Origin: Aureococcus anophagefferens
Lineage: Eukaryota; Sar; Pelagophyceae; Pelagomonadales; Pelagomonadaceae
Reading direction: 5' to 3'
NCBI RefSeq assembly: GCF_000186865.1
Contig: NW_008705561.1
Coordinates: forward strand, 1,228,758-1,292,757
DNA length: 64,000 nucleotides
Of this stretch, positions 22,146-54,204 are shown piece by piece. Under the pieces are notes generated by a model. That model did no database searches. It was not told the origin of the DNA and was given only the letters and a program-made list of their open reading frames with translations. Position numbers and translations under genes: made by a program. How positions within the stretch are numbered: position 1 is the stretch's first letter; each line of letters begins with the position of its first letter.

Positions 22146-24243
22146 ATGCGGTCGCGCAAGGTCAAGGACGACGACGAGTCGTCGGCCGGCGGCGCGTCGA
22201 GCGCGAAGGCGCATCCCTCGTCGTCGACGGGTCTGTCGCCCGGCGTCCTGCTCGTGGTAGGGGCCCTGGCGCTGTTCCTCGTGGGCGAATATTTCGACTA
22301 CGGCGCCAGCGCGCCGGCCCCGGCGAGCTTCGCCGCGGAGGTCCAGAGCCTCGTGCAGGCGCAGAACCGGACGATCTTCGCGCTGCGCGGCGCGCTCGAG
22401 CGCGCGACGGCGGAGCGCGCGGCCGTCGCCGCGGCCGTCGAGCGCGCGACCGAGCGCGTGACGCGGCCGCTCGCCGCCGCGGAGCCGGAGCCCGCGAAGC
22501 CGCCGCCGCCCGTGGCGCCGCCGCCGCCCGTGGCGCCGCCGCCCGCGGCGCCGCGAGCGGCGGGCGGCGGCGGCGCGACGTTCGCCGGCGTCGTCGACCA
22601 CGACATCCTCGCCTACGACGACGCCGCGTTCCGCACCGAGAGCGCGGCGGCGATGCTGCGGCGCTACAAGCCGACGCTCGGCGGGGGCACCTGCGAGCGC
22701 GACTTCGGCAACGGCCTCGTGGACCACTGGCGGAAGCAGAAGCGGACGTACTGCGCGCCGCGGTCCGACGGCTCGAATCCCGCGCGGCCGCCGTCGAAGA
22801 TCGACTGCTACCTCGTCAAGCAGACGAGCCACCACGGCAGCGGCGACAACCTGTGCGTCGGGGAGAACGTGCGCGTCAGCTTCGCGGACCTCGCCGACGG
22901 CAAGACGCCCCAGGCCTACTTCAAGCGCTACGTCGACAGCAAGCACCAGCAGCAGCACTCGAAGATCGCGTACCGCAAAGGGACGCTCGCCGCGGACTGC
23001 ACGACGGACAAGGAGGTCTGGCAGTCGAAGCACTTCCCCGGCTGGAACGTCAACTGGTTCAACGCCTTCGAGCAGACCGACGACCTCCAGTGCGACGTCT
23101 GGGACTGTGTGGAAATCAACCAGTGAGCTGGGACGTCGGGGCCAAACTTCAGAACTCTCTAGCTCGGTCAAATCGACGTCGATTCGGCTGATCTTTGGAC
23201 GAATCGATTGCTCTCGTCAAGCTCTCGAAGCAGATCCGAAAAGTCTGGTCCGAACCGTTCAATTTCACGCACATTGAAGTCGGATTGAAGATTTGATTTT
23301 CACACAGGTCTGGGAGGAGAACCCGACGCTCATCGTCGAGCGCGACACGTTCGCGAACTTCTTCCACAACAGCGAGGACTTCGTGAACACGCTCATCGCG
23401 TTGGCGATTTTGGAGTGGTCGACGGACGACCTGCAGCTCCTCTTCACGGACCTCTACCCCAAGGGCCCCTTCTGGCCCATCTGGTCCCAGGTCTTCAAGG
23501 GCCGGCGCGAGCCGCTCACGGCCTGGGACATCGCGCAAAAGTACGGCGACAAGCGCGTCTGCTTCAAGAAGGTCGGCATCGCGATTTTAGGCGCCGCGTC
23601 GCCCATCACGGTCGCGTCGTTCAACACGAAGTGCAAGGCGTCGAGCATCGTCCGCGCGTACAGCGACTACGTCGTCCGGGGTTTGGGCTTCGCGCCCGAG
23701 TCGCGCTACGCGTCGACCCGGGACCCGAAGCGCGTCGTCGTGACGTTCATGGCGCGGCGGTCCAGCGGCGAGTGGCCCGAGAAGCGCTTCTGCGACTCGG
23801 CGCGCTCCTTCTTCGACTGCGCGAAGCTCGGCCACCTCGGCATCCGGAAGCTGGGAAGATCCGTGCGCAACGACGGCGAGGTCGTCCGCGCTTTGAAGTC
23901 GCTCGAGGGCCGCGCGTTCCCCAACGGCGCGCGGGTCACGGTGCGCGACGTCGACTACAGCTCCCTGAGCTTCGAGGACCAGATCAAGACGAACCTGGAC
24001 ACGGACGTCATGGTCGGCCCGCACGGCGCGGGGCTCATGCACAACATCTTCATGCCCGACCGGGCCGCGCTCGTGGAGCTCTTCATCGACGGGTCCAGCG
24101 CGAATCGCCACTTCCACAACCTGGCGAACTGGCAGGGCCGCCAGTACCACTCCGCGTCCCTCGCGAACCCCGTCCCCACGGGCCAGCTCCTCTCGCTCGT
24201 CGCGGCCGCGATCTCCGCGCTCGACCTGTCGAAGCCGTACTAG
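22146..24243 (+). CDS. Golgi-type GT61 glycosyltransferase, split by an introner element
   Basis: Exons 22146-23096 and 23308-24243 encode 628 aa. A short basic N-terminus is followed by one signal-anchor helix (VLLVVGALALFLVGEYF), a Glu/Pro-rich stem, and a DUF563/GT61 domain: ERDTFANFFHNSEDFVNT, FPNGARVTVRDVDYSSLSFE and VMVGPHGAGLMHNIFMPDRA, the last the hallmark donor-site motif. GT61 enzymes transfer xylose, arabinose or GlcNAc in the secretory pathway. The first exon ends in phase 0 at LQCD, and the intron 23097-23307 is a 203-bp element plus an 8-bp target copy; removal gives LQCDVWEENPTL in frame. The 5' site is the host GT of the duplicated GTCTGGGA. Confidence 0.9.
23105..23307 (-). 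mobile_element. Introner element copy 1 (203 bp)
   Basis: It begins CTGTGTGGAAATCAA and ends TTGATTTTCACACAG, imperfect 15-bp terminal inverted repeats. It is flanked by the 8-bp direct repeat GTCTGGGA (23097-23104 and 23308-23315). Inside it is about 90% like the copies at 29575, 49526 and 53149 but in the opposite orientation to all three on this strand. It has no coding capacity. It forms the intron of the GT61 gene, lying antisense to the orientation in the PDZ/Sel1 gene. Confidence 0.95.
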
Positions 24244-24268
24244 CCTCTTCGTAAGGGGGGCGACCCCC

Positions 24269-25933
24269 CTAGGCGTCGACGAGCTCGCTCGTCATGTTGC
24301 AGAGCTCGCAGATGCAGAGGCCCGCGGCCGTGCGCGACGTGCGGTGGAGCAGGTTCGCGAAGGTGCAGTGCGGGCAGTTCCAGGACCGCGGGTTCGAGCC
24401 GCGGGACACGTGGGCCGCGGGCGCGCGGCCGGCCGGCGGCGGCGCCGGCGCGCGCTGGGGCGGCGGCGGCGCGGCCCGCGCCTGGGCGGCGCGCTGGGCG
24501 CTGAGGGCCTGCTGCTGCTGCTGCTGCCGCTGCTGCTGCTGCTGGCCCGCGTTCCACTGCGCGTTGAGGTGCTGGCTCGCCTGGCTCCGAAGGCTCTTGA
24601 GCTCGCGCGTGGCGCGGTCGAGGCGCGCCAGCGCGTCGCGCTCGTTGGCGGCCGACGCCTCGAGCTGCTGCTTGTGGTCGCGGGCCTGGGCGATGAGGCG
24701 CGCGTTGTCGCGCTTGAGCGCGTCGTTCTCGGCGCGCGTCGCCGCGGTCTGCTCGCCGATGAGGCCCCGGATGCGCTCGGCGTCCTGGGCCGCGCGGGCC
24801 TCGGCGGCGGCGGCGGCGCGCCGCTCGCGGTCCACGGCCGCGGACGCCGCGCCGAGGTCGCTCTCGAGCGCCTCGGCGCGCGCGGCCGCGGCCGTCGCCT
24901 CGCGGCGCGCGTCGTAGGCCTGGCGCGCCGCGTGGCTCGCGTCGCCCCGGGCGGCCTCGAGGTCCGCGGCGGACGCTTCCAGGGACGCGCGGAGCCGCTC
25001 CAGCTCGCGCTTCGCGGCCGCGAGCTCCTCGCGGAGCGGCGCCTCCGCGCGGCGGCTCTCGAGCGCCGGGCTCCGCCACCGCGCGTCGCCGGGGGGCTCC
25101 TCCTTGCGCTCGTCCTCGTCGGCGCCGCGGGCCGGGGGCGGCGGCGCCGCCGCGGCGGGCGGGGGCGGCGCGGCGGCGGCGGCGGCGGCGGCCTGGCGCG
25201 CGCGGACGCGCGCGCCCATCGTCGTCGGGCCGGCGGCCGCGGCGACGCCCGGCGGCGCCGCGGGGGCCGGCCGCGGCGGCGCGGGCGCCGGCGCCGGCCG
25301 GCCCATGGGCGGGGGCGCCGCGCGCGGCGCCGGCGGCGCCGGCGCGGCCGCGGGCGCGCCCCAGGGGCTCGCGCCGGGCGGCGCGCCCCAGGAAGACGCG
25401 GGCGCGGCGGCGCCGCCGGCGCGGAGGTCGACGACGCGGTTGATGGGCTGGCGGCACATGGGGCACTTCGTGGACGTGTCGGCCTTGAGCACGGTCTGCC
25501 GCCGCCACTGCTGCATGCACTCGGAGCAGAACTCGTGCGAGCCCGCGCAGTCCGCGCGGAGACGGTTCGGCCGCTCGAGGCAGATGGGGCACATGTCGCC
25601 CTCGTCGAGCGACGACCGCCGGGGCTCCGGCTCCGGCGGCGGCGGCGCCGCGGCGGCGGCCGGGGGCGGCGGCAGGGCCGCGAGCTTCGCGCGGAGCCGG
25701 ACCTAAGGAGCGGAAGCGTCGGTCGCGCGCGGCGCGCGCGGCCGCGCGCGCGGGCGCGGGCGCCGCGCGGTCGGGCCCTTGGGCAGCGCGAGCGCCGAGA
25801 TGCCGCCGTCGTCGAGCGCCATGAGCGACCGGAGCGTCGTCACGCCCGCGGCTGCGAGTTTCTCGGTGTGTTTCGTCAACTTGAGCTCCTCGACGAGCGC
25901 CGTGAGCGCTGCTGTTCCGTAGGCGTCGTTCAT
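24269..25933 (-). CDS. SAM domain - RING - coiled coil - RanBP2-type zinc finger protein
   Basis: Exons 25933-25769 and 25702-24269 encode 532 aa. Residues 4-60 form a SAM-like domain (ALVEELKLTKHTEKLAAAGV, LMALDDGGISALALPKGPT, then VRLRAKL after the splice). A C3HC4-type RING starts at residue 93 (CPICLERPNRL, CSECMQQW, KCPMCRQPI). A Pro/Ala linker leads to a long Ala/Glu/Arg coiled coil (about 215-400), a short polyGln, and a C-terminal RanBP2-like finger (WNCPHCTFANLL, ICELCN). The 66-bp intron is GC-AG (GCGCGG to CCTTAG), phase 0; without splicing a single TAG at 25703-25705 separates the two halves in the same frame. The SAM domain is broken without this splice, which supports it. Confidence 0.82.
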
Positions 25934-26195
25934 GATCGTGCGCTATGCGAGGGTGCCGGAGGTGCCGGAGAGGCGTTCGAGGCTGGCGGACTCGACGCGA
26001 CGCCGGTCAGAGGGGACAGGCGGGAGGCGGAGCCGGCGCCGGCGACTCGATCCGGCAGGGTCAACATCATCGGCATCTTTGGCTTTGGCTGCCTCTCCTG
26101 CGGCCGCCGCTCGATCGCGGCGCCGCACGGCCCGGCGCCCCGCGCCGCCCGATCGGCCCCGCAGCCACACAGCACGAACTAAAAGCACCGACCCC

Positions 26196-28831
26196 ATGGC
26201 CTTCCGCCTGTCGCAGCAAAAGGCCCAAAAGCAGCGCCAAAATGTGGAGCGCAAGCGCACGGCCGAGGCCCTCGCGGCCTTCGAGGCGTCCTTCGACGCC
26301 GGGCCGACGAAGGCCTTCGTGCGCGCGGCGGGGCCCGGCGAGGGCGACCGCGGCGCGACGTGCTTCGATCCGCGTCTTTCCCGGGAAAAACGAGCGCGGA
26401 CCGCGGCTTTCGAGCGATTAGGTACGCGCCCCCGCCGTCCGCGGCGCCGCCGAAGGCGCCCATGCCGCACCGCGCGCGGCGCGCGGGCGCCAAGAGCTCC
26501 ATGGACGAGTTCCTCGACGAGCTCAAGAAGCGCGAGACGCTCCGGAGCTTCGGCGCGGACGTCGACGGCCCCGCGCCGCCGCGCGCGGCGCCGCCGGCGT
26601 ACGAGGGGCGCACGGAGGGCACGGGCTACCAGGGCACGACGAACCTCTGCGTCAACAACCTCGCGGCGACGGTGACGGAGGAGAAGCTCATGCAGGTCTT
26701 CGGCGCGTTCGGGGACATTTTTTCCGTCAAGGTCATGTGGCCGCGGTCCGAGGACGAGCGGCGCCGGGGCCGCAACCGGGGCTTCGTGTCCTTCCGCACG
26801 CGCGAGGACGCCGACGAGGCGCTCAACGCCCTCGACGAGACGTCCATCGAGGGCGTGCGCATCGCCGTGAGCTGGGGCAAGGCGCTCAAGGACCAGCCCG
26901 GCGCGGGCGGCGGCATGACCGCGGCGCAGCGCAACGCGTACTCCTTCGGCGGCCAGGGCCCCCCCGCGGCGCCGCCGGCCAAGCCCGCGCCGGGCCGCCT
27001 CGCCGCCGTCGGCGCCATCGCGACGGCCGCGGCGACGGGCGCGCGGCCGAACCCGCTCGAGCAGTTCGCCGCTCGGACGCACGGCGTCGCGCTCCCCACC
27101 ACCACACCGACGTCGTCGAAGCGGACGCGCTGGGACGCGCCGCCGGACTCGGCGCTCGAGGCGGCCCTCGAGTCGACGGGCGACGACGCGACGGACGCCG
27201 CGGTGTTCCAGGCGTCCGCGAAGATTATAGTAGTGGCGCCGCCCGACGAGCGGACGCGGCGCCTCGTCGACGCGACGGCGCTCTTCACGGCCGCCGACGG
27301 CCGCGCCTTCGAGGAGTTCGTGCGCGTGCAGGAGGGCGCCAACCCCGAGTTCGCGTTCCTGTCGCTCGCGGATTCCGACGACGGCCGCTACTACCGGTGG
27401 CGCGTCTACGAGGCGTGCATGGCCGCCCAGGGCGCGCCCCTCGCCAGGATCTTCCACCTCGACGGCCGCGACGTGCGGGCCTGCCGCATCCAGCGCGGCG
27501 GGCCCTACTGGGTCGCGCCGGACGCGGCGACGACCGCCGCGCTCGGCGCCGAGGAGCACGAGCTGCCGCTCACGGCCGCGGAGGCGTCGCGGCGCGCGGA
27601 CCGGAATTTATTAGACAAGTCCGACGAGAACGCGCTCTACGCGCGGCGCGGCGCGCGCACGGGCGACGCGTCGCTCCACGTGTCCGACGCCATCGAGTTC
27701 CAGCTCCAGCTGTCGCGGCTCACGCCGTCGCGCGCGAAGATCCGCGACGCCATGGTCTTCGCGCTCCAGCGGGCCGACGCCTGCCGCGAGATCGCCGCGC
27801 TCGTGGTCAACGCCCTCGCCGACGACGCGCCGACGACGGCGCCGGACGCGCTCGTCGCGCGGCTCTACCTCGTGTCCGACGTGCTCCACAACTCCGCGGC
27901 GCCGGGCCGCGGCGCGCGCCTCTTCCGGGGTTTGCTGCGGCCGCCGCTGCCCGGCGCGCTCCATCGTCTCGGCGCGCGGCTCTTCGCGCCGGGCGAGGTC
28001 GGCGTCATGGAGGCCGCGCGGCGCCGCGCCTTGGCGGAGAAAGTCGCGACGTTGTTGAACGTCTGGCTCAACTGGTCCGCGGCGTTCCCGCCGCTCTTCG
28101 TCTTCGGCCTGGAGTCCTGCTTCTTCGAGCACGGTCTCGACGCGTCGCGGAGCCGCGAGGACGACGCCGTCGGCGAGGACCGGGCCGCGGCGCTCCGGCG
28201 CGACGCGCGCTTCGCGGGTCTCTGGGACGACGCGCCCGCGGGCGCGCTCGGCTTCCGCCTCGCGCGGCTCCGCAAGTACGTCAAGCACCGCACGCTCGGC
28301 ACGCACCCGGCGGCGGCCCTCGCGGCGAGCGACGCGGAGCAGGCCGCCGAGGACGCCGCGCCGCCGGCGAAGGCCGCCGCGCGGCCGTCGCGGGCCGCCG
28401 CCGCCGCGCCCGCGCCCGGGCCCGCGCGCGGCACCTGGGGCAGCGTCGGCGCCGACGACGACGACGACGAGGACGTCGACGGCGAGGCCATCGACGACCT
28501 CCTCGACGACGTCCAAGCGCCCGCGCCGCCGCCGCCGGCCGCGACCGCGGCGGCGCCGCCGGCGCAACCGCCGGCGCCGCCGGAGCAGCGCGAGGCCCGC
28601 GGCCGGGACCGGTCGCGCTCGCGGTCCCCGGACCGGCGGCGCCGCGACGACCGCCGCCGCTCGGACTCGCGCGACCGGCCCCGCGACCGCGACCGCCGCC
28701 GCTCGGACTCGCGCCGCCGCCGCCGCCGGAGCCCCTCCTCGTCGCGCTCGTCCTCCCGGTCCTCCTCCGCGTCCTCGCGCCGCCGGTCCAGGAGCCGCGG
28801 CTCGTCGCGGAAGTACTACCGGCGCGGGTAA
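26196..28831 (+). CDS. U2SURP: U2 snRNP-associated SURP-domain splicing factor (U2SURP/SR140)
   Basis: Exons 26196-26371 and 26422-28831 encode 861 aa. Domain order is that of SR140: a charged N-terminal helix region (QQKAQKQRQNVERKRTAEAL), an RRM at about 131-212 (TTNLCVNNLAATVTEEKLMQ, RGRNRGFVSFRTREDADEAL), a SURP module (RAFEEFVRVQEGANPEFAFL), a CID-like helical domain (SRAKIRDAMVFALQRADACR, VARLYLVSDVLHNSA) and a C-terminal RS tail. It acts with the U2 snRNP at branch-site recognition. The 50-bp intron 26372-26421 is GC-AG (GCGTCT to GATTAG), phase 2. A splicing factor whose own gene depends on a GC 5' site is noteworthy in this GC-AG-rich genome. Confidence 0.92.
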
Positions 28832-28907
28832 CCGCTCTCGTTGAAGTTTTCAACGTGGACAAGTTGAAAACGGTTGCGAACTCGATTTTTTTTGTCGAGA
28901 AGCCACG

Positions 28908-30231
28908 ATGGCTGACACGTTGGAGGCGGATGGTTGGGTGGCCGCGAGGGACGTCGAGGCAGCCCCGTTGGAGGTGGAGGACGCGCTGAGCGCCGCGGCC
29001 GACGCGGCCATGTTCGAGGCCGTCTTCGAGGAGCGGCGGCTCGGCATCAAGCTCGTCCTGGCGCGCGACGACGGCGGCCGCACGGCGGTGGTCGTCGATG
29101 AGACCATCGGCGGCGTCTGCCCCGACGACGTCTTTCCGCGGGACGAGCTCGTCGCCATCGACGGCGAGGGCTTCTTCCTCCCGACGCCGGCGACGTTCAG
29201 CACGTTTATCACGAAGCTCGCGAAGCGGCCGCGGCCGCTGACGCTGAAGCTGCGCCGCGGCGCCGGCCGCGAGGGCGCGCTCGCCGCGCAGACGAAGCGG
29301 CACGAGCGCGCGCGGTCGAAGGCCGCGCTGGAACACTACGAGAAGCGGGAGGAGGACGGCCGCGCGGCGTACAACGCCGCGCTACTCAAGGGCAAGGGCG
29401 TCCACGGCGAGAAGGACACGGCCGCGGCGCTCCTCCTGCTGCGCAAGGCGGCGGGCCTCGGCGTCGTGCGCGCGCAGACCGCGCTGGCGTCGCTGTACCT
29501 GACGGGCCGCGGCGGCGTCGCGCGCGACGACGAGGAGGCGTTCCGCTGGTTCTCCGAGGCCGCGCAGCGGGGCGCTGTGTGGAAATCAAATCTTCGAACC
29601 GACTTCAATGTGCGCGTAATCTAACGGTTCGGACCAGCTTCTTCGGCTGTGCTTCGAGAACTTGACGAGAGCAATCGATTCGTCCAAAAATCAGCCGAAT
29701 CGACGTCGATTTGACCGAGCGAGAGAATTTCAAAGTTTGGTCGGGACGTCCCAAACCAGTGGTTGATTTCCACACAGGCGGGGCGACACGGAGGCCCTCT
29801 ACCAGCTCGGCAAGTGCCACCGGAACGGCTTCGGCGTCGCGGCGGACGACCACGCGGCGCTCTGGTGCTATACGCGCGCGGCGAACGACGGCCACGCGCG
29901 CGCGCGCGACCAGGCGAAGCGGCTCATCGCGGACGGCGAGGCCGCGTCGCGGCGCGAGTCGATGCTCCGGTCCGTCCGGGACGCGCTCTTCCCGCCGAAG
30001 AAGGACGACGCCGCCTACGAGGAACTGGAGTCGCCCTGCCTCGGCGTCCACGCCGCGCTCCGGCCCGAGGACGACGACGAGCTCGACCTCCGCCCGGGCT
30101 ACGCGCCGCCGGCGCCGCCGGCCGCGCCGCTCGCCGTGCCGCCGACGCCGCCCGCCGTCTTTCGCGGGCGGAAGCCGCGGAACGAGCCCGCGGCGACGAC
30201 GAACCCGTTCCTCGACGAGGTCGCGTGCTAA
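28908..30231 (+). CDS. PDZ-like domain plus Sel1 repeats, split by an introner element
   Basis: Exons 28908-29566 and 29778-30231 encode 370 aa. Residues 40-120 look like a PDZ domain (RLGIKLVLARDDGGRTAVVV, then DDVFPRDELVAIDGEGF, and a TFSTFITKLAKRPRPLTLKL helix-strand). Residues 140-250 are Sel1-type helical repeats (LASLYLTGRGGVARDDEEAF, RWFSEAAQRGDTEALYQLGK, CHRNGFGVAADDHAALWCYT); the second crosses the splice junction. The tail is Pro-rich. Intron 29567-29777 is a 203-bp introner plus one 8-bp target copy, phase 2, with GC as 5' site (GCGGGGCG). Using the GT inside the element instead would shift the frame. Sel1 proteins usually act as adaptors; partner unknown. The stop abuts the stop of the next gene with no gap. 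Confidence 0.85.
29575..29777 (+). mobile_element. Introner element copy 2 (203 bp)
   Basis: Perfect 15-bp terminal inverted repeats CTGTGTGGAAATCAA / TTGATTTCCACACAG and flanking 8-bp direct repeats GCGGGGCG (29567-29574, 29778-29785). Same orientation on the plus strand as copies 3 and 4. Non-coding. Exact removal of the element plus one repeat rejoins a Sel1 repeat, leaving a GC-AG intron. Confidence 0.95.
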
Positions 30232-31050
30232 TCATTGCCGCGCCCTAAGGAAGTCCTTGACCGCGTTGCGCAGCGGCGCGTTGCCCGGGACGACGTGGCC
30301 GCCGGCGTGCTCGAAGACCGCGGGGCTCGCGAAGCACGACGCGAGCGACCGGGCGACGTCGGGCGGCACGGACGCGTCGGACGCGCCGAGGCAGTGGAAC
30401 GTCGGCGTCGCGTTCGGCGCGGCCGCGGCGGCGTCGAAGGGCGCGCGGACGATCGCGTCGCGCGGCACGAAGCCCGCGAAGAGGAGCGCGAATCCGAAGA
30501 GCCCGGGCTCCGAGAGGCACAGCAGCGCCGCGAGCGTCGCGCCCTGCGAGAAGCCGAGGACGCCGTCGAAGGGGCCGTCGTCGGCGACGCACCGCTTCAC
30601 GCGCGCGACGGACTCGTCGAGGCCGACGTACGCGCCCGAGAGCGCGGGCCGCTCGGCGTCGCGCGTGTTCCACCAGCCCAGGGGCGCGCCGCGCGCGTCC
30701 GCGTCGATGTCGCCGAGGAACGCGCCGGTCGCCGCGTGCGGCGCGTCGAGGTAGTGCACGTCCGCGAGCGCCTTGATGCCCTTGCGCACCGCGCCCGTCC
30801 GCGACGAGAAGAAGTTGGCGTTCTGCGCGTAGCCGTGCAGGCACAGCAGGCGGAGTTTTTTGGGGGTGGTTGGTTTCGGTGCCGATGTTTTTGGTGTTGT
30901 CGTGTTGCCGATATTAGCGGCCTCGGCGCTGGCGCCGGCCTCGGCGCTTGCACTCAGGGAGCTCATGAGCGCGCGCGATGTGCGCGACCCCGGTGCTGCG
31001 AACGGGTAGGCAGTTGGTAGCAGGGCTGCGCCAACGAAGAGGGCGCGCAT
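30232..31050 (-). CDS. FSH1/OVCA2-family serine hydrolase
   Basis: The product is 272 aa from ATG 31050. The alpha/beta-hydrolase fold of the FSH1 family is shown by KLRLLCLHGYAQNANFFSSR, DGVLGFSQGATLAALL (nucleophile Ser in GFSQG), TFHCLGASDASVPP (acid) and EHAGGHVVP (His). OVCA2-type enzymes cleave long-chain esters. The N-terminus MRALFVGAALLPTAYPFAAP looks like a signal peptide with a Phe just after the junction, suggesting plastid import. A Thr/Pro/Lys linker follows. The TGA stop (30232-30234) directly abuts the TAA of the plus-strand gene. Confidence 0.88.
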   Translation of the reverse strand: MRALFVGAALLPTAYPFAAPGSRTSRALMSSLSASAEAGASAEAANIGNTTTPKTSAPKPTTPKKLRLLCLHGYAQNANFFSSRTGAVRKGIKALADVHYLDAPHAATGAFLGDIDADARGAPLGWWNTRDAERPALSGAYVGLDESVARVKRCVADDGPFDGVLGFSQGATLAALLCLSEPGLFGFALLFAGFVPRDAIVRAPFDAAAAAPNATPTFHCLGASDASVPPDVARSLASCFASPAVFEHAGGHVVPGNAPLRNAVKDFLRARQ

Positions 31051-31145
31051 ACGATGAGGCAATCGGGCACAACAAGCTCAAGGTGAGATCAAGGTGCTGT
31101 GCGAGAGCATGGTCGGACGTAGGCTAAGTAGTTTGGCCACCACAA

Positions 31146-31296
31146 TAGCAGCCATGCTGAACGCCCTCCGCTAGCTATTAGGGCCGTCGGATCCTCCGGT
31201 TCACTTCACGCGCCGGCCCCGGAGCCGTCGAGGTCTCGGCGTCGCGCGATTCCTGCAGCGACGATAGCAGCCATGCTGGCAGCCATGCTGAACGCC
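31146..31296 (+). repeat. Partial duplication of a gene start, making a short upstream ORF
   Basis: TAGCAGCCATGCTGAACGCC at 31146-31165 is repeated at 31265-31296 as two overlapping copies that include the true ATG of the FABP-like gene. The upstream copy reads ATG-CTG-AAC-GCC-CTC-CGC-TAG (31153-31173), a six-codon uORF 100 bp before the main start, copying its MLNA-coding start. Confidence 0.6.
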
Positions 31297-42831: not shown

Positions 42832-43061
42832 GTCTGTGCCGGACGCACTTCCGGACGCAGATGCCGGACGCTGCTTGGCTCGGGTCGATGCTGCCGTCGC
42901 TCATCTGCAGGCCTTGCTGCGAGCCGAGCCAGGTTGAGGGCTACGCTGACGGTGGCCGCCGCGCCGCGATCTGTGCCGACGTTACGCCCCGACGCTGCCA
43001 AAAACTACCCACACAGCCCTCCAGCGCGTCGCTCACACACACACAACAAGACAGCGCCACA

Positions 43062-44121: not shown

Positions 44122-44232
44122 GCCCGGGGGCTGTCGTCAGCCCCCCGCGGCGTCGCACCGCGGGCGTAATCGCCGTTCGACTCGGCTACGGTTCCGTCCG
44201 GAATCTTTAAGCCCCCGTTCAGAGTTCGCATG

Positions 44233-45186
44233 TTACGGCCGCCGCGGCATCGAGTACCCCGGCGAAGTCCACGGCGGCTCCCAGTACTCCAGGACGCGCA
44301 GGGCGACGTCGTGCGGCGCGTCGCGGCCGAAGCGCTGCCGCAGGTACCGCGTCAGGCAGCCGCGCGGCGCCGTGAGCACGCGGCGGTACGTGCGCACGAG
44401 GTTCTCGTAGCCGCCCGCGGCGTTGACTTTTTCGAGGTAGCGCCAGCCGTCAGTCAGCTTCCTAGCGGGTGGGATTAGGTTGAGCTCTTCCATGTCAATA
44501 GTCGCGCCAGCTTTGAGCAGCACCGCGAGGGTGCGACGTTCGCCATGGTACTCCAAAGCCGCGCGGAGCGGCGTACCGTGATAGCCACTGACGCTATTCA
44601 CGTTGGCGCCAAAGGTGAGGAGGCATTTGATCGTTTCATCGGCTCCGCTCACCGCCGCGACATGCAGCGGCTCGTTGCCGTCTGCGTTTTCCACGTCGAC
44701 CTTGCAGCCTGCATCGAGTAAAAGACGCACAATTTCCGCCTTGTGCTTCCCGTGCTCACTGCCAGCTGCGTGCTCAATGCCAGCTGCATCATGGAGGGGC
44801 GTACCACCAAAGTCATCCACGCAATCGATGTTTGCGCCAGCCGATATGAGGAAACGCGCCACTTCCACGTGCCCTTCATAAGCCGCGAGGTGGAGCGGCG
44901 TGCACGAGCCGCGCACGTCGCGAACGTTTAAATCTCCGCCCGCGTTGACCAATAAGCGCGCGACCTCGACGTGCCCGTTCGCCCCCGCGTAGTGGAGAGC
45001 GAAGTCCCCGTCTCTGTCTGCTTGATCCACGCTTCCCGCAGCGAGTAGCGCCGCAACCATGGAGGTGTTCCCAGGTTGGGCGAACGTGTGTAGGAGCGTC
45101 TGTCCATGGCTTTCAGCATTTACATCCGCGTTGAAATGCGCGAGGATCACGAGCATCGCGTCGGTGTCGATCGACGCCGCGTCCAT
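44233..45186 (-). CDS. Ankyrin-repeat protein
   Basis: The product is 317 aa from ATG 45186. About six ankyrin repeats run from residue 25 to 215, e.g. GDFALHYAGANGHVEVARLL, CTPLHLAAYEGHVEVARFLI, NEPLHVAAVSGADETIKCLL, with an insertion in the fourth (GIEHAAGSEHGKHK). The C-terminal 90 residues are not repeat (LTDGWRYLEKVNAAGGYENL, VALRVLEYWEPPW). GC content is lower than in the neighbours, like the F-box/kelch gene, suggesting membership of a lineage-specific multigene family. Protein-protein binding role inferred; no other domain. Confidence 0.82.
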   Translation of the reverse strand: MDAASIDTDAMLVILAHFNADVNAESHGQTLLHTFAQPGNTSMVAALLAAGSVDQADRDGDFALHYAGANGHVEVARLLVNAGGDLNVRDVRGSCTPLHLAAYEGHVEVARFLISAGANIDCVDDFGGTPLHDAAGIEHAAGSEHGKHKAEIVRLLLDAGCKVDVENADGNEPLHVAAVSGADETIKCLLTFGANVNSVSGYHGTPLRAALEYHGERRTLAVLLKAGATIDMEELNLIPPARKLTDGWRYLEKVNAAGGYENLVRTYRRVLTAPRGCLTRYLRQRFGRDAPHDVALRVLEYWEPPWTSPGYSMPRRP

Positions 45187-45343
45187 GTTTCGCTTAGCTG
45201 CGCGCACGGTCGTTCACGACGCGCGCGGACCCATCCGCGCCCGAGACCGGTCCGCTCGAGAGCCTCAACATTGCACTTCACCATCCGGGAGACACCCCTT
45301 ACACGCACCCTAGTCTGCCCCGGGGCGTCGTTCGACTCGGATT

Positions 45344-46727
45344 TTACACGGGCGTCGTCACGCGCGCGCCGTCGTGGGGGCGGTACGCGCCGTCCGGCGG
45401 GAACACCTTGGCGAACGTCGCCGTGTCCGCGACGCCGCACGTGTTGTTCCGCGCGTCGAGAAATATGTAGCCGTCGACGCCCCACGTCGTCGACCACTGG
45501 TTCTTGACGATCCAGTACGGCGGGTCGCTGTCCATGTTGAAGCCCACGAGCCCGACGCAGTGGTCCAGGTCGTTGAAGTTGTAGGACCCGCACGTCGCCG
45601 TCGACATGACGCCGCCGGCGTAGACGTCCCAGTTCGCCGCGTTGACGCAGATGCTCGCCGGGCCGTGCGCGGCGACGGCCTTGCGGAGCCCGTAAAGGTC
45701 CTGGTCCTCGCAGTCGTCGAAGCAGCCCTTCGTCGCCCAGGAATAGTTGGCGACCTGCGCGTACACGCCCGTGAGCAGCGTCTCCTCGACCTCCGTGCCG
45801 ATGCCCCGGCACGTCTCCGTGCACTTGGGCGAGAGGCACGTCCGCTGGCTGCCCATACCCTGGACGTAGGGGTAATACCACAAATTCGAGAGGCCCGGCG
45901 TGACGCGCTCCTTGATGTACGCGTACGCGGAGACGGGCCCGCCGCCGCCGCAGCCGAACATCTCGTCGTCGCAGGAGATGATCTGCTGCGCCGAAAACTC
46001 GGACGCGGGGTTGCCGTCGAGGTACCACTCGCTCTGCACCTGCTGCGCCACGGAGAAGGCCCAGCACCTGCGAAGCGCGGCGTTTCAAAAACGACGCGCG
46101 CGGCGGCGTCGGACGCGGGAATTTTTACGAGCCGCACTGCCCCTGGTTCTGGATGTAGCCCACGGTCATGCCGACGGCGCGCCAGTCGACGACCTTTTCG
46201 TCCGCGTCGAAGGTGTAGCGCCGGTCGCCGTCGTCCGCGGCGGTCCACTCGCGCGTCACGCCGCCGGACGTCCGCTCGACGGTGGCCTTGTCGAGCGCCG
46301 GCCGGTAGCCCTTGCGCGCCGCCACCTCCTCGGCGGTCCAGTCCATCATCTCCGTCTCGCCGAGGACCGCCGCGTCGCCCGCGGCGCGCGCCGCCGCGTT
46401 GAGCCGCCGCGACCGGCGGAGCCGCTCGACGTAGAGCGGCCGGCGCGCGGCGGCCTCGTCGTCGCCGTAGGCGCGGCCGCGGCTCGCGCGGAACGCCGCG
46501 AAGCGCGCGTCCTCCTCGTCCGAGACGTCCGCGAGGCTCGGCGCGTCCGGCGGCAGCTTCGTGCCGCCGTCGTTGATGGCCGGCGCGTCGTCGGCGTCGT
46601 CGTCGCTCGCGCGGCCCGTGCTCCTGAAGGAGACGACGGCCGCGGGCGTCGCGCGCAGCCGGAGGGCGACGAACGCGGCGACGACGAGCGACAGCGCCAG
46701 CGCCAGCGGCGCCATGGGACGGCGCAT
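45344..46727 (-). CDS. Papain-family cysteine protease (C1A) with signal anchor and propeptide
   Basis: Exons 46727-46129 and 46067-45344 encode 440 aa. A hydrophobic segment (MAPLALALSLVVAAFVALRL) is followed by an I29-type propeptide (RFAAFRASRGRAYGDDEAAA) and the mature domain starting near KVVDWRAVGMTVGYIQNQGQ. Active-site residues are present: Gln195 and Cys201 in QCGSCWAFS, His369 in DLDHCVGLVGFN and Asn389 in KNQWSTTWG. The 61-bp GT-AG intron splits the catalytic QCGS-CWAFS motif in phase 2, which fixes the junction. Likely lysosomal/vacuolar or secreted. A second block of Cys (CLSPKCTETCRG, CFDDCEDQDLYGL) is an insertion relative to papain. Confidence 0.92.
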
Positions 46728-46904
46728 GACGACTCCCAGGGGCTGCCCAGACTGCGCGTCCGCCAATCTTGCGGGCTGGTGGTGAACCTTGAACGACGTG
46801 TTGAAGAAGTAAGCGGCGGGCGCGCGGCGGGGGGGCGGGCCGGGCCGGGCCCGGGCGGCCCGGCGGCTAGGGGGGAAGGGGGAGCGGCCGCGCGTCGCGC
46901 GCGC

Positions 46905-49900
46905 CTAGCACTGGAAGGCGAGGCCCGGCGGGAGGCCCGCGAGGAGCGTGTCGTCGATGGCCTTGGAGTGCGCGTCCGTCATCTTGCCGCCTCGGGAGAC
47001 GTGCCACTTGCCCGCGCCGCCGGAGCGGAAGCGGGACGTCGCCTCGGCGGAGCCGTCGCCGGCCTTGGCGGCGGCGGCCTTCATGGCCTTGAAGTCGGAG
47101 CCCGCGGCGACGGCGTCGAGGAGCGCCGGCGGCACGTCGCCCGGACCCGGCAGGTCGAGGAGGAACGCCGCGAGTTTCGCGATCTCCGCGCGCGGGTCCG
47201 CCTTGAGGGCCTCGAAGTGGACGTAGTAGACGCGCTCGTCCCGCTGGGCGTGGACGTACCAGTCGACGTGGTGGTCCTTCCAGGACCCGTGCTCGACCTT
47301 GCCCTCGACGAAGTTGCCCACGAAGTGGTCGAAGTCGCCCGCGTACTCAAAGGGCGGCAGCGCCGACGCGTGCGCGTAGAGCGAGCAGCAGACGTCCTTG
47401 GGGTTGCGGGCGATGTAGACGATCTTGGCCTTGGGGTCCAGGTTCGCGTCGGCGACGGGGAAGAGGCCCCGCGGCGCGTGCGTCTTGAAGACGCGCCGCG
47501 CGTCCGGCCCGTGCGCGTAGGCCGCGTCGTGGGGCGGCCGCAGGCTGCGCGCGTCGAGGTAGGGGCAGGGCCCGCCGAAGCGCTTCGTGCGCAGGTAGCA
47601 GACCTCGGGCCAGGGCGCCTGCGACTGGAGCGCGGGGTGCGGCTTCACCTTGGTCGCGTCGCCGCCGTGGAGCAGCAGGAGCACGATCTGCTGCATCCAC
47701 GTCGTGCCGCACTTGGGGTAGGTGCAGACGAAGACGTCGCCGGCCCGCGACAGGAAGGACCGCCGCAGCTCCGCGACCGCGGACGGCTTCACGCACGGCG
47801 GGTGCGGCACCATTCGCCCGTCCGGCAGCCGGAGCAGCGAGTAGGCCATGCCCTTGCCGTCGAACAGGGGCGCGTCGAGCGTCGGGACGTCGTGGGCGAC
47901 GCCGAGGTCGCTGACCGCGCGGTCGAAGCCCGCCACGCCCCGGAGCTTGGCCGCCCACGCGGCGACGCGCGGGAACGCGGTCACGACCTCGGCCCACGCG
48001 GGCCCGTCCCAGACGTGCGCGGCTCGGCCGTCGTCGACGAAGCGCGCGTCGTGGGGCCGCACGGCGTGGGGCGAAAAGGCCGGGTCCGACGCCCCGCAGC
48101 AGCGGCGGTGGTAGAGCGCCGCGAGGACGACGACGGGCAGCGCGAACGCGTCCGCGAGCGACGGGCTCGCGCCCGCGAGGAACGGCGCCTCCGCGAGGGT
48201 CTCCTCCACGAGGCCCACGCGGCCCCAGAGCTCGGACGCGTAGGGCGCCATGTCGCCCGGCGCGTGGGGGTGCGCGAAGGCCTCCGCGAGCTCCGCGGCC
48301 GCGTCGCGCGCGCCCGCGGGGTCCAAACAATCCTTGGCGGCGACCGCGTCGAGGAGCGCCGCGCCGTCGCCCTTGAAGACGTGGCGCAGCGTCGGCGCGA
48401 AGAGCAGGTGGAGGCGCAGCGGCGCGAGCTGGTAGAACCAGGCCGTGCGCGCCCAGCCGGCCCACTTGCGCGCGACGGCGCGCGCGACGGCGTCGCCCGG
48501 CGTCATGCGGCCCGAAGCGTCGAACGTCGCGCACCAGTGGTCGCCGCGCGTGAGCGCGTCGACGTGCTCGACGATGACGCGGGCCCCGTAGAGGCACCGC
48601 GCGCCGTCCTTGCCCTTGAGGACGAGCGCCGGCAGCTCCCCGAAGGGCGTGAGCTTCCGGTGTTCCGTCGTCGCGTGCTCCAAGAGGCTCGCGTCGACGC
48701 GCTTCGGCGCGAAGGCGTAGCCGAGGTAGTCGAGCGCCGCGATGGTCGTCGCCGACAGGGCGTCGCTCGCGTCGTAGACGAGGAGGCCGCAGTCGTCGCT
48801 CACGAGCTCCGGGAACGCGCCCGGCATGGCCTTGAGCGGCGCGGCGTCGACCTCGCGGAGCGCGGCCGCGAGGCCGCTCGACGCGCCGCTCTTCTGCGTC
48901 GCGAGGCTGCGCTGCGTGACGCGCGTGAAGCCCCAGGCCTTTCCGCCGGCGCGCAGCTTGCCGAAGAGGACGAAGAGGGCCCAGGGCAGCGACGCGCCGA
49001 ACCAGACGAGGCCGTACCGCGGCGCGTTCGCGCGGAGGAACGACGGCGAGAAGCCGCTGCCCCAGATGGCCAGGTCCCGCTCGACGAACTTGGCGAAGCA
49101 GGGCCGCGCCCGCAGCTTCTCGAAGAAGGCGACGGCGTTGCCGAAGGGCGCGCGGTCCGCGGCCGTCGCCGCGATGCCGTTCTGCGGCATCTTGACCTAG
49201 GCCGCACGCGAATACGACGTCGACGCGCGCGTCCTCGAACGCCCGTTCGTGGTGGAGCACCGGACGAGAGACTCGTCCAACCATCGGCCACGTCGACGCC
49301 ACCGAGCTCGAGCGTTTCGAAGCGCGGTCGGGCGCGGCGGTCGATTTCGGCGCGGACCTCGACGAGCCGCGGGTACGCGGCGAAGTCCGCGGCCGTGAAG
49401 GCCGACCCGACAAGAAAGTCGCGGCCCGCCGTCGCCGCGTCGACCATCTTGAGGCCCTGGAGGATGCGCCGCACGCGGCTCCGGCACGACGCCGCGGAGA
49501 GGTACGTGCCCTCGTACATGCCGGCCTGTGTGCAAATCAAATCTTCAACCCGACTTCAATGTGCGCGTAATCGAACGATTTGGACCAGACTCTTTCGCTG
49601 TGCTTCGAGAACTCGCCGAGAGCAATCGATTCGTCCAAAAATCAGCCGAATCGACTTCGATTTGACCGAGCTAGAGAATTCTGAAGTTTGGCCCCGACGT
49701 CCCAGCTCGCTGGTTGATTTGCACACAGATGCCGGCGCACTTGCCCGCGTAGAAGGCGTCGCCCTTGGCCGCGGCCTCCGCGGGCGGGCCCTCGGCGAAG
49801 AAGGACGTGCGCGACCACTCGAAGCGCCAGAGGCAGCCGTCGAGCTGCTGGCGGCTCAGCGGCCAGACCTCCTCCGCGAGGCCGAGCTCCCACTGCTGCC

Positions 49901-50348
49901 ACTGCTCGACGTCCGTGCGCGCGGCGAGGTCGCTCGGGTAGAGGGGCTTGGACTCGGGGAAGGCCTCGTCGAGGAAGGTGCAGATGGCCTGGGACTCGTA
50001 GATCGTGCAGTCCGGGAGCGTCGCGTGGCCGCGGACGACGAGCACGGGCACCTTGCCCTGCGGGTTGATCGCGAGGTACTCGTCGCTGCGCTGCTCGCCG
50101 GCCATGAGGTTGACCATGACGCCGTGGTAGGGCAGCGCCTTCTCGATGAGCGTCAGCCAGACGCGCCGCGCGCAGGGGCTCCGCGGGAAGTAGTAGAACG
50201 TGAGGCCCGACCGCGGCGCGAACTTGGCCGCGAGGTCCGGCTTCGCCGGTTTGTCCTTCCGGGCCCGCTTCCGCAGCAGGGCGCGCGCGAGGAGCGCCGC
50301 GGCGCCCGCCGCCGCCACGCCGACGTAGCCCGCCCGCGACAACCCCAT
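46905..50348 (-). CDS. GST - GST-like - sulfotransferase fusion, split by an introner element
   Basis: Inferred exons 50348-49737, 49525-49292 and 49196-46905 encode 1045 aa, all phase 0. Module 1: after a membrane-anchor-like helix, a thioredoxin-fold GST (SGLTFYYFPRSPCARRVWLT, NPQGKVPVLV, CTIYESQAIC) and its helical domain (FLVGSAFTAADFAAYPRLVE, ending FFEKLRARPCFAKF). Module 2: a second GST-like pair (CGLLVYDASDALSATTIAAL, TPFGELPALVLKG, FLAGASPSLADAFALPVVVL). Module 3: a PAPS sulfotransferase with YPKCGTTW, catalytic His in FKTHAPRGLFP and YIARNPKDVCCSLY. Intron 1 is an introner with GC 5' site; intron 2 (49291-49197, 95 bp, GT-AG) is inferred because the GST frame has no nearby stop. Alternative: a separate sulfotransferase gene from ATG 49190. 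Confidence 0.72.
49526..49728 (+). mobile_element. Introner element copy 3 (203 bp)
   Basis: Terminal inverted repeats CTGTGTGCAAATCAA / TTGATTTGCACACAG, flanked by 8-bp direct repeats ATGCCGGC (49518-49525, 49729-49736). It interrupts the first GST module; in the sense strand of the gene the intron starts GC (GCCGGCAT) and ends CACACAG. Both terminal repeats carry the same G-to-C change relative to copies 2 and 4. Confidence 0.95.
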
Positions 50349-50652
50349 GCTGGAGCACCTCCGCCAATCGGCGCCGGGTGGATCCCTTCGGCTGCCCGAG
50401 TCCGGCCAGCCGGCGCTGCCGGTGCATGATGCCGATGTACTAGTTTGATGCTCTTCAACCCCCCAAAAAACTAAACGGGGCGATCTCTCTCCTGTTTCGA
50501 CCTGTAGTCGGTGCCCATTCGCGCGGGGCAGCCCACCCCGCCGCGTCCGGCCGCGCCCCGCCGTCTGGCCGCCGCCGGGGGCTCCCGGACCGGGAACGAT
50601 TGAGCCTTTCTCGTGCTGTACCGCGCCGTCAGTGGCGTGCGACCCGCCGACC

Positions 50653-52539
50653 ATGGTCGACGACGGCTGCGTCTACGTGGAGCCGAAGGGCGACGAGACG
50701 CGGGCGGCGGCGGCCTCCTTCGTCGCGACTTCCTTCGGCGGGGGGCCGGGCGACGGCGGCCCGAGCCTCGCGGACGCCGGCCTCCGCGAGGACGTCGCGT
50801 TTCTCAAGGACGAGGTGAAGCGGCTCCGCCTCGAGCTCGGCCGGACGACCAACGAGCTCCACGATACGGAGAATGAGCTCAAGGCCGAGGAGAACGAGCT
50901 CCACAAGGCGGAGGAGAACGGGGGGGTCAACGCGCTGGACGCGATGGCCGAGGCCATGGACGAGATGGGCGGCGACGAGGAGGGCTTCATCGGCAAGAAG
51001 GTCGACCGGCTCTACGAGAAGGCGGACGAGTCCTACTTCTTCCGCGTGCAGACCATGATCATGTACAACGGCTTCAGCCCCACGACGTGCGTCCACTTCT
51101 TCTTCTCCATGGCCATCGCCGGGCTCCAGGTCATGGCCATGCAGACCGTGAGCCAGGGCATCTGGCTCGCGAGCGACTTCGTGCGCTGGGGCGTCGACGA
51201 CGACCGCCTCATCGGCGAGTTCTACCCGAGCGGCGTGCCCTACCCGACGGACTACGACCGGCTCTTCTCGTTCTACGACGGCGTCAAGAGCGACGGCACG
51301 CTGCTCATCAACTTCTTCCCCCTCGTCTTCTGCTGTATCTCCGTGACCGTCTCCCTGCGGGGCGAGCTCGACGAGTTCAAGGCGGGCTACGTGCTGATCC
51401 GCCGCATCGGCCGGGACCTCGTGGCCTCCATCTTCTCGCCGCCGCCCGTCGTCGACGCGACCGACGGCGACGACGACGACGGCGGCGGCGAGGGCGGCGG
51501 CGCCGCCGCGGCGTTCGGCGCGCGCGACCGCCGCGCGAGCCACATCAGCGTGCTGAGCGAGGCCAAGGACGGCGAGGAGGCCATGCCCATCGGCCGCCTC
51601 GACATGTCGGTGCGCCTCTTCTGCTGCCTCTGCACGTACTACGTCCGCGGGTCCCTCCTCTGGTACTTCGTCGACGTGTCGGCGCAGGTGCTGGGCACGG
51701 CCGACGGCCCCTTCAACATGCTGCTCAACGCCGTCGCCCTCGTCTACATCCTCGACATCGACGACATGCTCAGCGTCGACATGCCGTCGAACAACTTCTT
51801 CGGCATCGACGACCCGGAGCTGCTGAAGCGGTACAAGCGGCGGCTCCACAACGCGCGGGGCCTGTTCCGCGACGTCGTCGAGGCCGTCAAGGTCGCGCCG
51901 GAGTACGTCCTGCGCGCCTACCACGTCGTCGGGTGGTCCGTCCCCTTCGCCATGTGCATCTCCATCTTCTCCATCGCGAGCCACATGCAGAAGCACACGC
52001 AGCGGGGCGAGCTCGTCGGCATCGACGACGACAGCCACCTCGGCGCGGCCCACGAGCACCTCACGGAGCAGTACAACTGGTGCATCTACGCGCTCCTGGG
52101 GACCGTGCTCGTCGACGTCCACATGTCCGCGTCCATCGCGTGCAGCGACCGCGACGACGGCAAGAGCTGGATCGCCTACGCCAAGGGCGGCCTCGCCTTC
52201 GTCGTCGACGGCATGATCCTCATCATCATCCGCCACCTCGGCGTGCGCTACGCCATCTCGTCCCTCCTCACCTACAACCTCTCCTGGGAGACGTCGGCCG
52301 CGCGGTTCTGGGACCGCGTGAACCCCGCGCCGAACCAGCCCGAGGACGAGCCCTTCGACTGGGGGCAGTACACGAACATGCTCAACCTCAATTTCACGGC
52401 GACGAACTTCACGTGGACGGCCGACACGCTCGCCGCGATCCAATCCTACATCATCGACCACTGGGAGAACTTCGACTTCCGCAGCCACGGGCTCCCCGAC
52501 CCGGCGGACTTCGATTTCGATTCAGCGGACTTCGCCTGA
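50653..52539 (+). CDS. Seven-pass membrane protein with N-terminal coiled coil, unknown family
   Basis: The product is 628 aa from ATG 50653. A coiled coil covers about residues 46-90 (LKDEVKRLRLELGRTTNELH). Hydrophobic segments lie near 146-164, 215-235, 320-342, 355-370, 423-443, 476-495 and 512-530. A long cytosolic or lumenal loop (265-315) is Asp/Gly/Ala-rich. An acidic motif DIDDMLSVDMPSNNFF follows the fourth segment, and the C-terminus ends in Asp/Phe repeats (PADFDFDSADFA). Channel or transporter character is possible, but I see no filter or named signature. Confidence 0.65.
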   Translation: MVDDGCVYVEPKGDETRAAAASFVATSFGGGPGDGGPSLADAGLREDVAFLKDEVKRLRLELGRTTNELHDTENELKAEENELHKAEENGGVNALDAMAEAMDEMGGDEEGFIGKKVDRLYEKADESYFFRVQTMIMYNGFSPTTCVHFFFSMAIAGLQVMAMQTVSQGIWLASDFVRWGVDDDRLIGEFYPSGVPYPTDYDRLFSFYDGVKSDGTLLINFFPLVFCCISVTVSLRGELDEFKAGYVLIRRIGRDLVASIFSPPPVVDATDGDDDDGGGEGGGAAAAFGARDRRASHISVLSEAKDGEEAMPIGRLDMSVRLFCCLCTYYVRGSLLWYFVDVSAQVLGTADGPFNMLLNAVALVYILDIDDMLSVDMPSNNFFGIDDPELLKRYKRRLHNARGLFRDVVEAVKVAPEYVLRAYHVVGWSVPFAMCISIFSIASHMQKHTQRGELVGIDDDSHLGAAHEHLTEQYNWCIYALLGTVLVDVHMSASIACSDRDDGKSWIAYAKGGLAFVVDGMILIIIRHLGVRYAISSLLTYNLSWETSAARFWDRVNPAPNQPEDEPFDWGQYTNMLNLNFTATNFTWTADTLAAIQSYIIDHWENFDFRSHGLPDPADFDFDSADFA

Positions 52540-52583
52540 CGCCCGACGCCCGACCCCCGCCCACCCCGAAGGTGTCGCGCGCG

Positions 52584-54204
52584 TTAAAGCTCGTCGGCCT
52601 GCCACCGCTTCCGCGACTTGTACCAGAAGACGAACACGTCGAAGACGAGGAAGAGCGCGAGGACGACCTTGATGTTCAGCAGGCCGCCCGCCGCGCCGTC
52701 GCCGCGCCGCGGCGACGCCTCGTCGTCGTCGCGGAAGCCCGGGGGCCGGGACCGCTCATCGTCGTCGTGCGACGAGAAGCGCCGGAGCCGCGCGGCGTCC
52801 GGCCGCGGCTCCGGCGGCGGCAGGAGGTCCGCGCCGCCGTCTTCTCGCGCGAGCAGGTCCGCGAGGAGCACGGGTTTCGCGGCCCCGCCGAGGTAGGCCG
52901 GGCAGGCCGCCCGCGGCACGCCCGCGGCCCGCAGCTTGCCCGGCGTGTCCGCGGCGCCCGGCGGCGCGTGGACGAACGAGATGAGGTCCTTCGTCTCGTC
53001 GTCGAGGAGCCTCTCGACGACGCGCCACGCGCCGCGCGCGACGGCCGGCGCGTTGACGACGACGTTCTTCCAGACCGCGTCGGCGTACATGCGCTCCGTG
53101 AGCTTCGCGTAGGCCTTGGCCAGCGCCATCGTCTCGCCCCGCATCAACCTGTGTGGAAATCAAATCTTCAACTCGACTTCAATGTGAGCGTATTCGAATG
53201 TTTTGACACAAGCACTTCCGCCGTGCTTCGAGAACTCGATGAGAGCAATCGATTCGTCCAAAAATCAGCCGAATCGACGTCGATTTGACCGAGCTAGAGA
53301 ATTTCAAAGTTTGGCCCCGACGTCCCAGCTCACTGGTTGATTTCCACACAGGCATCAACGTGCCGAACGACGCGCCCGCGACGTCGACGAGGAAGACGCA
53401 CTTGTAGACGCGGCCGTAGCCCTCCCGGGGGCGCGCGAGCTCCCGCTGGAGGCCGTCGAGCGCCTGGACGCGGCGCTTCAGAATCAAATCGAGGGGCAGC
53501 TTTAGCAGCGCGTCGAAGTCGATGCACCCGAGCCGCTCGAGGACGACGAGGTGCCCGAAGCCGTCGCGGCCCGCGACCCACGTGGGCCACACGGCCTCGT
53601 GGAACCGCAGGTCGTCGCCCGCCGCGGGCAGCAGGCGCGCCGCGTCCCAGGCCAGGCGCCGATCCGCGACCCACGCGCACATGTCCGCGGTCGCCGCCGC
53701 GCGGTCCTCGAGGAGCCGGAAGCCCCGCACGAGCCGCAGGANNNNNNNNNNNNNNNNNNNNNNNNNNNNNNNNNNNNNNNNNNNNNNNNNNNNNNNNNNN
53801 NNNNNNNNNNNNNNNNNNNNNNNNNNNNNNNNNNNNNNNNNNNNNNNNNNNNNNNNNNNNNNNNNNNNNNNNNNNNNNNNNNNNNNNNNNNNNNNNNNNN
53901 NNNNNNNNNNNNNNNNNNNNNNNNNNNNNNNNNNNNNNNNNNNNNNNNNNNNNNNNNNNNNNNNNNNNNNNNNNNNNNNNNNNNNNNNNNNNNNNNNNNN
54001 NNNNNNNNNNNNNNNNNNNNNNNNNNNNNNNNNNNNNNNNNNNNNNNNNNNNNNNNNNNNNNNNNNNNNNNNNCCCAGCGCGCCGAGCGTCGCGGGAAAG
54101 GACTCCTGCAGGAAGGGATAGGACGCCTCGTCGGCGTCGCCGAGCTCGGACAGCGTCCTCGCTTTTAGGGGTGATCGGACCGGAGACCGCGGGCTCGTCG
54201 ACAT
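52584..54204 (-). CDS. CRAL-TRIO (Sec14-like) lipid-transfer protein with C-terminal membrane anchor
   Basis: Seen exons: 54204 into an N gap (53742-54073), then 53741-53360, then 53148-52584. The CRAL-TRIO domain shows WPTWVAGRDGFGHLVVLERL, GRVYKCVFLVDVAGASFGTL and, after the introner, YADAVWKNVVVNAPAVARGA and VERLLDDETKDLISF, the classic lipid-pocket pattern. A disordered linker leads to a tail helix (NIKVVLALFLVFDVFVFWYK). The N-terminal piece is MSTSPRSPVRSPLKARTLSE. Intron 53359-53149 is an introner plus one 8-bp target copy, phase 2, GT-AG; joining gives GTLMRGETMALAKAYAKL. Middle sequence is unknown because of the gap, which may hide further introns. Confidence 0.82.
53149..53351 (+). 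mobile_element. Introner element copy 4 (203 bp)
   Basis: Perfect 15-bp terminal inverted repeats CTGTGTGGAAATCAA / TTGATTTCCACACAG with flanking 8-bp direct repeats GCATCAAC (53141-53148, 53352-53359). It lies antisense to the CRAL-TRIO gene; on the sense strand the intron begins GT (GTTGATGC) and ends CACACAG. Confidence 0.95.
53742..54073. other. Assembly gap (332 N)
   Basis: A run of N inside the CRAL-TRIO gene between its N-terminal segment and the lipid-binding domain. The true length is unknown. Confidence 0.99.

Follow-up and report, generated by a model that had tools for sequence, protein, structure and literature searches.

The window analysed here, a stretch of 64,000 nucleotides from Aureococcus anophagefferens with a GC content of 71.9%, contains four copies of a 203-bp element within protein-coding sequence, and we conclude that the introns at these four places were almost certainly made by the insertion itself, with the transposon and the host duplication that flanks it supplying the splice sites. 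Elements of this kind, introners, represent one of the rare cases in which the origin of new spliceosomal introns can be observed, and their mechanism has reportedly been described in Aureococcus anophagefferens by Huff, Zilberman and Roy in 2016 (Nature 538:533). In the mechanism that we propose, (i) a non-autonomous DNA transposon of 203 bp with terminal inverted repeats (CTGTGTG...CACACAG) would enter an exon and duplicate 8 bp of host sequence, (ii) where the duplicated 8-mer begins with GT or GC (GY) on the coding strand, its upstream copy would become the 5' splice site, (iii) the last two bases of the element, which are AG in either orientation, would become the 3' splice site, and (iv) removal of 8 + 203 = 211 nt by the spliceosome would leave the coding sequence as it was before the insertion. 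An exon insertion that lacked GY there would break its host gene, and insertions of this sort are nearly absent from our sample. Both the splicing of these introns and the selective loss of non-GY insertions are what we infer from these patterns.

An earlier note on this DNA had placed the four elements at positions 23105, 29575, 49526 and 53149 of the window, and each was found there with a length of 203 bp, a CTGTGTG start and a CACACAG end. Likewise, the perfect 8-bp flanking repeat that it reported differs from copy to copy (GTCTGGGA, GCGGGGCG, ATGCCGGC and GCATCAAC for copies 1 to 4). Copy 1 is oriented opposite to copies 2 to 4, to which it is 85-90% complementary. The coordinates are collected in Table 1.

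Table 1. Introner-derived introns of the window, their parts and host genes (window positions; phase is that of the intron).
Feature	Position	Strand	Description
Intron 1, introner-derived	23097..23307	+	211 nt, GT-AG, phase 0; GT61-type glycosyltransferase gene
Intron 1, donor copy of duplication	23097-23104	+	GTCTGGGA
Intron 1, element	23105-23307	+	interior in the opposite orientation to copies 2 to 4
Intron 1, exonic copy of 8-bp duplication	23308..23315	+	GTCTGGGA
Intron 2, introner-derived	29567..29777	+	211 nt, GC-AG, phase 2; Sel1-repeat gene
Intron 2, donor copy of duplication	29567-29574	+	GCGGGGCG
Intron 2, element	29575-29777	+	
Intron 2, exonic copy of 8-bp duplication	29778..29785	+	GCGGGGCG
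Decayed introner, next intron of GST gene	49197..49363	-	167 nt, GT-AG; boundaries by eye
Intron 3, introner-derived	49526..49736	-	211 nt, GC-AG, phase 0; GST-like gene
Intron 3, element	49526-49728	-	
Intron 3, donor copy of duplication	49729-49736	-	sense GCCGGCAT
Intron 3, exonic copy of duplication	49518..49525	-	sense GCCGGCAT
GST-like gene, start codon	50348	-	ATG; first exon 612 nt
Intron 4, introner-derived	53149..53359	-	211 nt, GT-AG, phase 2; CRAL-TRIO gene
Intron 4, element	53149-53351	-	
Intron 4, donor copy of duplication	53352-53359	-	sense GTTGATGC
Intron 4, exonic copy of duplication	53141..53148	-	sense GTTGATGC

The four copies belong to a family that extends through the genome (49.05 Mb in 86 contigs searched; for strain CCMP1851, PMC11237714 gives a genome of 49.9 Mb with 70.5% GC). 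The 15-base terminus pattern CTGTGTGNAAATCAA was matched 546 + 528 times, compared with no match for the reversed control pattern, which identifies a large repeat family rather than chance matches. On one contig, C1, 74 listed termini correspond to 51 copies (23 pairs and 28 singles); extrapolation from this ratio gives ~740 copies in the genome that match at one end or both, and at the C1 density of 0.93 such copies per 64 kb the window with its four copies lies above average. Copies were sampled from C1, from part of a second contig, C2 (most of 100 listed places), and from eight loci retrieved by BLAST with copy 1, so that the sample is non-random in the genome and holds copies of which both ends were recognisable. 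The 78 loci and the window yielded 77 end pairs; one of these, a 745-bp pair at locus L052, appears to combine two adjacent elements and was set aside, so that 76 copies remained. At locus L027 (737-1703), three copies lie within 1 kb. The length is exactly 203 bp in 52 of the 76 copies, terminal inverted repeats are present as 15-bp termini, with pairing scored for each copy, and the duplication is perfect in 56 copies and has at most one mismatch in 67. With the coding strand assigned by a codon model that was trained on the window and blind to the GY rule, 65 of 75 evaluable copies are confidently exonic, compared with 61% of random window positions (p = 8e-7). The 11 of the 76 copies that are not confidently exonic were excluded from the sense-strand counts; eight of them keep a coherent frame whatever the setting, on both strands and some with low coding scores. 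A relaxed exon test of the same kind is passed by 1267 of 1974 random points and therefore discriminates poorly.

That one splice site comes from the element and the other is co-opted from the duplication is a conclusion drawn from the statistics of these copies. In all 67 clean copies, i.e. those with at most one mismatch in the duplication, the donor position carries GY on one strand or both, compared with a background GY rate of 36.9% for flank 8-mers (p about 1e-29). Among the 65 confidently exonic copies, GY is present on the sense strand in 64 and on the antisense strand in 14 (p = 1e-21), the latter count being near the fixed-end background of about 21%, and deletion of the element together with one duplication gives a coherent reading frame in 64, where chance would give one in three. 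The anatomy that the earlier note had predicted, with GT or GC taken from the duplication, AG taken from the element end and an in-frame removal of 211 nt, was thus recovered in 64 of 65 copies. The terminal AG itself carries a second signal: at the acceptor its A is kept in all 65 copies, whereas the corresponding mirror base at the donor is kept in 54 (p = 6e-4), which marks the 3' splice site as one that is used and under selection.

Alternatively, GY could reflect a target-site preference of the transposase, with splicing being incidental. In 73 of all 76 copies, including nine of the 11 that are not confidently exonic, one strand or the other has GY at the donor position, which fits this possibility. 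However, GY stands at both ends in only 18 of the 67 clean copies, whereas independent end preferences predict about 65% (p = 1.4e-10), and this one-sided bias leads us to reject a symmetric target-site preference. Moreover, the side on which GY lies tracks the coding strand and not the orientation of the element, which relative to the sense strand is 34 to 29 with two copies unassigned, a near-even split as expected if either end can supply the AG. Given that the selective retention of the acceptor A also counts against it, we consider this explanation very unlikely. Gain by an RNA-mediated route, in which a lariat is reverse-spliced and then reverse-transcribed, has a negligible probability because the 8-bp duplications, the inverted termini and the occurrence of both orientations are marks of DNA transposition.

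The host genes provide a separate view of the junctions. According to the earlier note, excision restores a known domain in all four genes, and this was borne out in two: the Sel1 match (residues 188-223) and the CRAL_TRIO match (49-182) span their junctions at residues 220 and 123. In the other two the Pfam match lies on one side, beyond the junction at 317 for GT61 (499-572) and before the junction at 204 for GST_N (48-133), and because these matches miss the junction, support there comes from homologues that align across it. In a further set of spliced translations, the Pfam match spans the junction in four of 10 proteins (Mannitol_dh at L051, HECT at L049, Peptidase_M20 at L060 and MFS_1 at L078), and in the remaining six, including the GST, the best match is one-sided. 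The open reading frame of the CRAL-TRIO gene contains 332 N at window positions 53742-54073, reflecting a gap or masking. In homologue searches, in which the 8000 candidates with the most shared words were scored, the Sel1 protein found a counterpart on an ENA contig of 2117 nt (P0133) that has 99% identity, the same length of 370 aa and four substitutions elsewhere, and that runs without an insert across copy 2, which has a GC donor. A second protein, on an ENA contig of 905 nt (P0094; 99% identity), crosses copy 3, also with a GC donor, as GKCAGMY. The GT61 query matches an annotated Aureococcus anophagefferens protein at 98% identity and 96% coverage. For GT61, 11 of 12 homologues with 62-82% identity (P0003-P0014) have no gap within 18 residues of the copy 1 junction; further down among the best 40 of 93 homologues, gaps often occur close to the junction, and some of the proteins are paralogues. 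These data also bear on the possibility that ordinary miniature inverted-repeat transposable elements broke four genes whose frames can be joined by chance. Read-through of the element in the GST gene does meet in-frame stops, as such a scenario would have it, but the frame coherence across the sample and the full-length Sel1 homologue at 99% identity speak against broken genes, and we regard this scenario as extremely unlikely.

Several observations weigh against the proposed origin of the introns. Three of the 76 copies, all among the nine less clean ones, fail GY by the plain rule; by eye, the two duplication copies appear to be offset by one base in each. One of the 65 confidently exonic copies, L009, fails both sense GY and frame, and its right-hand duplication is shifted by one base. 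P0133 and P0094 are compatible with splicing and could be either spliced transcripts or intron-less alleles, and P0094 departs from the GST protein two residues past the duplication. At copy 1, the annotated Aureococcus anophagefferens protein JL721_4375 (P0001) has the four extra residues VWDC, and JL722_12698 (P0002) lacks nine residues.

The VWDC insertion corresponds to the duplication plus CTGT, i.e. the P0001 model splices at a GT inside the terminus. It is the exact product of an alternative in which the element carries both splice sites: the donor would be the GT that follows CTGT (CTGT|GTGGAAAT), the intron would be 199 nt and 12 nt (8 + 4) would be left in the mRNA. A class with such a +12-bp transcript is given in PMC9860276 for a metagenome-assembled genome of Aureococcus sp., and given that removal of 199 and of 211 nt leaves the same frame, frame coherence does not discriminate between the two. 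An internal donor, however, gives no reason for the near-invariant sense GY in the duplication. Also, the internal GT (positions 5-6) is lost in five of 65 copies and is kept no better than its mirror base (60 versus 62 of 65), and the four extra residues are missing from the homologues that cross copies 2 and 3; neither P0133 nor P0094 supports a +12 product. We therefore judge an internal donor very unlikely, and GenBank model JL721_4375 probably uses the wrong donor at copy 1.

Under the reading that we favor, in which the donor is taken from the duplication, the donors themselves are of interest. Of 64, 33 are GC and 31 are GT; at coding sites GC:GT is about 80:20, so that GT is favoured (p = 5e-7). 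When the 64 donors were compared with phase- and dinucleotide-matched GY sites from coding sequence nearby, no consensus beyond GY was detectable at positions -3 to -1 and +3 to +8 (chi-squared at most 5.2, 3 degrees of freedom). It is conceivable, although we would not rate it as the likelier case, that the donor is defined by its position and two bases, such that any GT or GC exactly 8 nt upstream of the terminus works and internal GTs are ignored; if so, the +12-bp Aureococcus class in the literature might have arisen in annotation, where gene finders faced with a GC or weak donor would move on to the GT that lies four bases into the element. The +12 arithmetic is identical to that at copy 1, and on these grounds the class in PMC9860276 deserves to be checked. 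We also considered an RNA hairpin between the termini as the cause of donor choice. For 55 of 64 introns the predicted fold contains a terminus stem with at least 10 of 15 pairs, and end-to-end pairing holds in 896 of 960 cells compared with 880 +- 3.4 (maximum 892) in 2000 end shuffles. This excess may stem from G-C/C-G variation that was inherited at position 8, and at positions 2 and 4 most changes lack a compensating partner (C facing A, eight copies each); for these reasons we count the hairpin as not supported rather than as refuted.

A fifth, decayed introner forms the next intron of the GST gene. Its terminus CCGCGCCGAAATCGACC resembles CTGTGTGGAAATCAACC, its duplication has decayed (GTCGAGGT / GTCAAGAT), and it is GC-enriched and lies about 160 bp from copy 3. 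The nhmmer profile of the 203-bp family (family 1) matches it at 49212-49348 (envelope 49206-49355) with an E value of 5.9e-6; in the window, this profile also matches the four known copies and gives six weak matches (E 0.048-0.85), four of them inside known copies, and on the reversed window it gives no match. A homologue, P0095, reads YPRLVKAPQNG over the junction and supports the joined YPRLV-K.

A second family, of ~192 bp, was found in the fetched loci (L010, L053, L078, L071, L029, L026, L006, L061, L062, L075, L023, L048 and L042), and ends could be located for 14 of 19 matches. On the sense strand most copies read C[AG]GGGCAG...CTGCCCAG; C[AG]GGG stands at the donor end of 13 of the 14, and CAG closes all 14. 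The duplication starts with GY in 14 of 14, and by eye in L010 too; the strand is weak in two of the 14, given that the orientation of L048 is a default set in the absence of coding scores and that the strand margin of L071_2677 is close to nil. The interior of family 2 is homologous to that of family 1 (local score 54, compared with 26 as the best of 1000 shuffles) and the termini differ; orientation seems to be fixed inside each of two subfamilies. In the window, family 2 was not found, its profile (E up to 1) matching only the four family-1 copies. At L071 (953-2677), three family-2 copies and one family-1 copy lie within about 1.8 kb.

The two families also differ in divergence. With the query excluded, 39 of 41 family-2 genome matches among those listed are 96-99% identical to the query across 160-182 of its 205 bases, some of which are host flank. 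This suggests that family 2 is a younger burst. In family 1, 66 near-full-length copies have a mean identity of 90% to their consensus and of 85% to each other. The recent burst that the earlier note had read from four copies of one size is therefore upheld in part: the second family looks younger, but the pairwise identity of the family-1 copies and the decayed fifth copy do not agree with it. In total, two families with related interiors and different ends seem to have undergone bursts of different age in one genome. Another element of the window, 443 bp long at 59621-60063, has 16-bp inverted termini that match perfectly (CGGGGTCGGACGTAAC), an 8-bp duplication CCGATGGC and several internal GTAAGTCGT repeats; because neither end supplies an AG, it does not belong to this type of introner. 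For the de novo scan of the window for duplications with inverted termini, the reversed window provides no control because the pattern is symmetric under reversal.

Duplications of 8 bp are a feature of hAT transposons, the termini of which are of the CAGNG type. Family 1 has the 8-bp duplication; CAGNG-type termini were not found, family 1 beginning with CTGTG and family 2 having the donor end described above. A Pfam search of the same genome for a MULE transposase (PF10551) gave no match, and its control matched. Searches for hAT (PF05699), KDZ (PF18758) and P-element (PF12017) transposases also gave 0 matches and are uninformative because their controls had no match either.

The additions to what is known are the fifth, decayed introner, the second family and the GenBank model that probably uses a wrong donor at copy 1, and for the specialist the value is quantitative: 33 of 64 donors that are GC, no detectable donor information beyond GY, a selected acceptor A and two families whose bursts seem to differ in age. 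Neither the second family nor the donor-consensus result is mentioned in the passages of the introner literature considered here, a scope that leaves supplements and Huff et al. 2016 outside.

Comparison with known systems, based on the introner passages of the papers cited, places these elements close to published ones. Introners of Micromonas pusilla, for which PMC9860276 has families with and without target-site duplications and terminal inverted repeats, are likewise short intron-making DNA elements, but of another lineage. Family 4 of TARA_AOS_82_MAG_00129 (Gozashti et al. 2022, Fig. 2F legend, PMC9860276) shares with our copies the 8-bp duplication and the intron inside an exon; that family is described as carrying both splice sites and adding 12 bp to the transcript (8 from the duplication and 4 from the introner), with an example that spans 77 bp (scaffold 000000001056:3289-3365), whereas the copies described here fit a donor in the duplication and an unchanged transcript length. 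In the same paper, genus-level TARA metagenomes were excluded from the RNA-seq analysis, and introner families with 0 to 50% GC donors are given, so that a high share of GC donors is not new. For A. anophagefferens itself, PMC7789003 describes introners whose direct repeats and terminal inverted repeats have a constant length and calls their splicing motifs canonical, whereas half of the donors sampled here are GC. PMC10228655 describes introners in both orientations with co-opted splice sites, and PMC9481584 gives a characteristic length of ~210 bp, compared with 211 here. The match to Aureococcus introners drawn by the earlier note is thus stated for this species in all three papers, and repeats, orientations and co-option are alike. 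Introns of this kind are thus already on record, as very probably is the family itself, and given these published descriptions the core of the finding is a confirmation.

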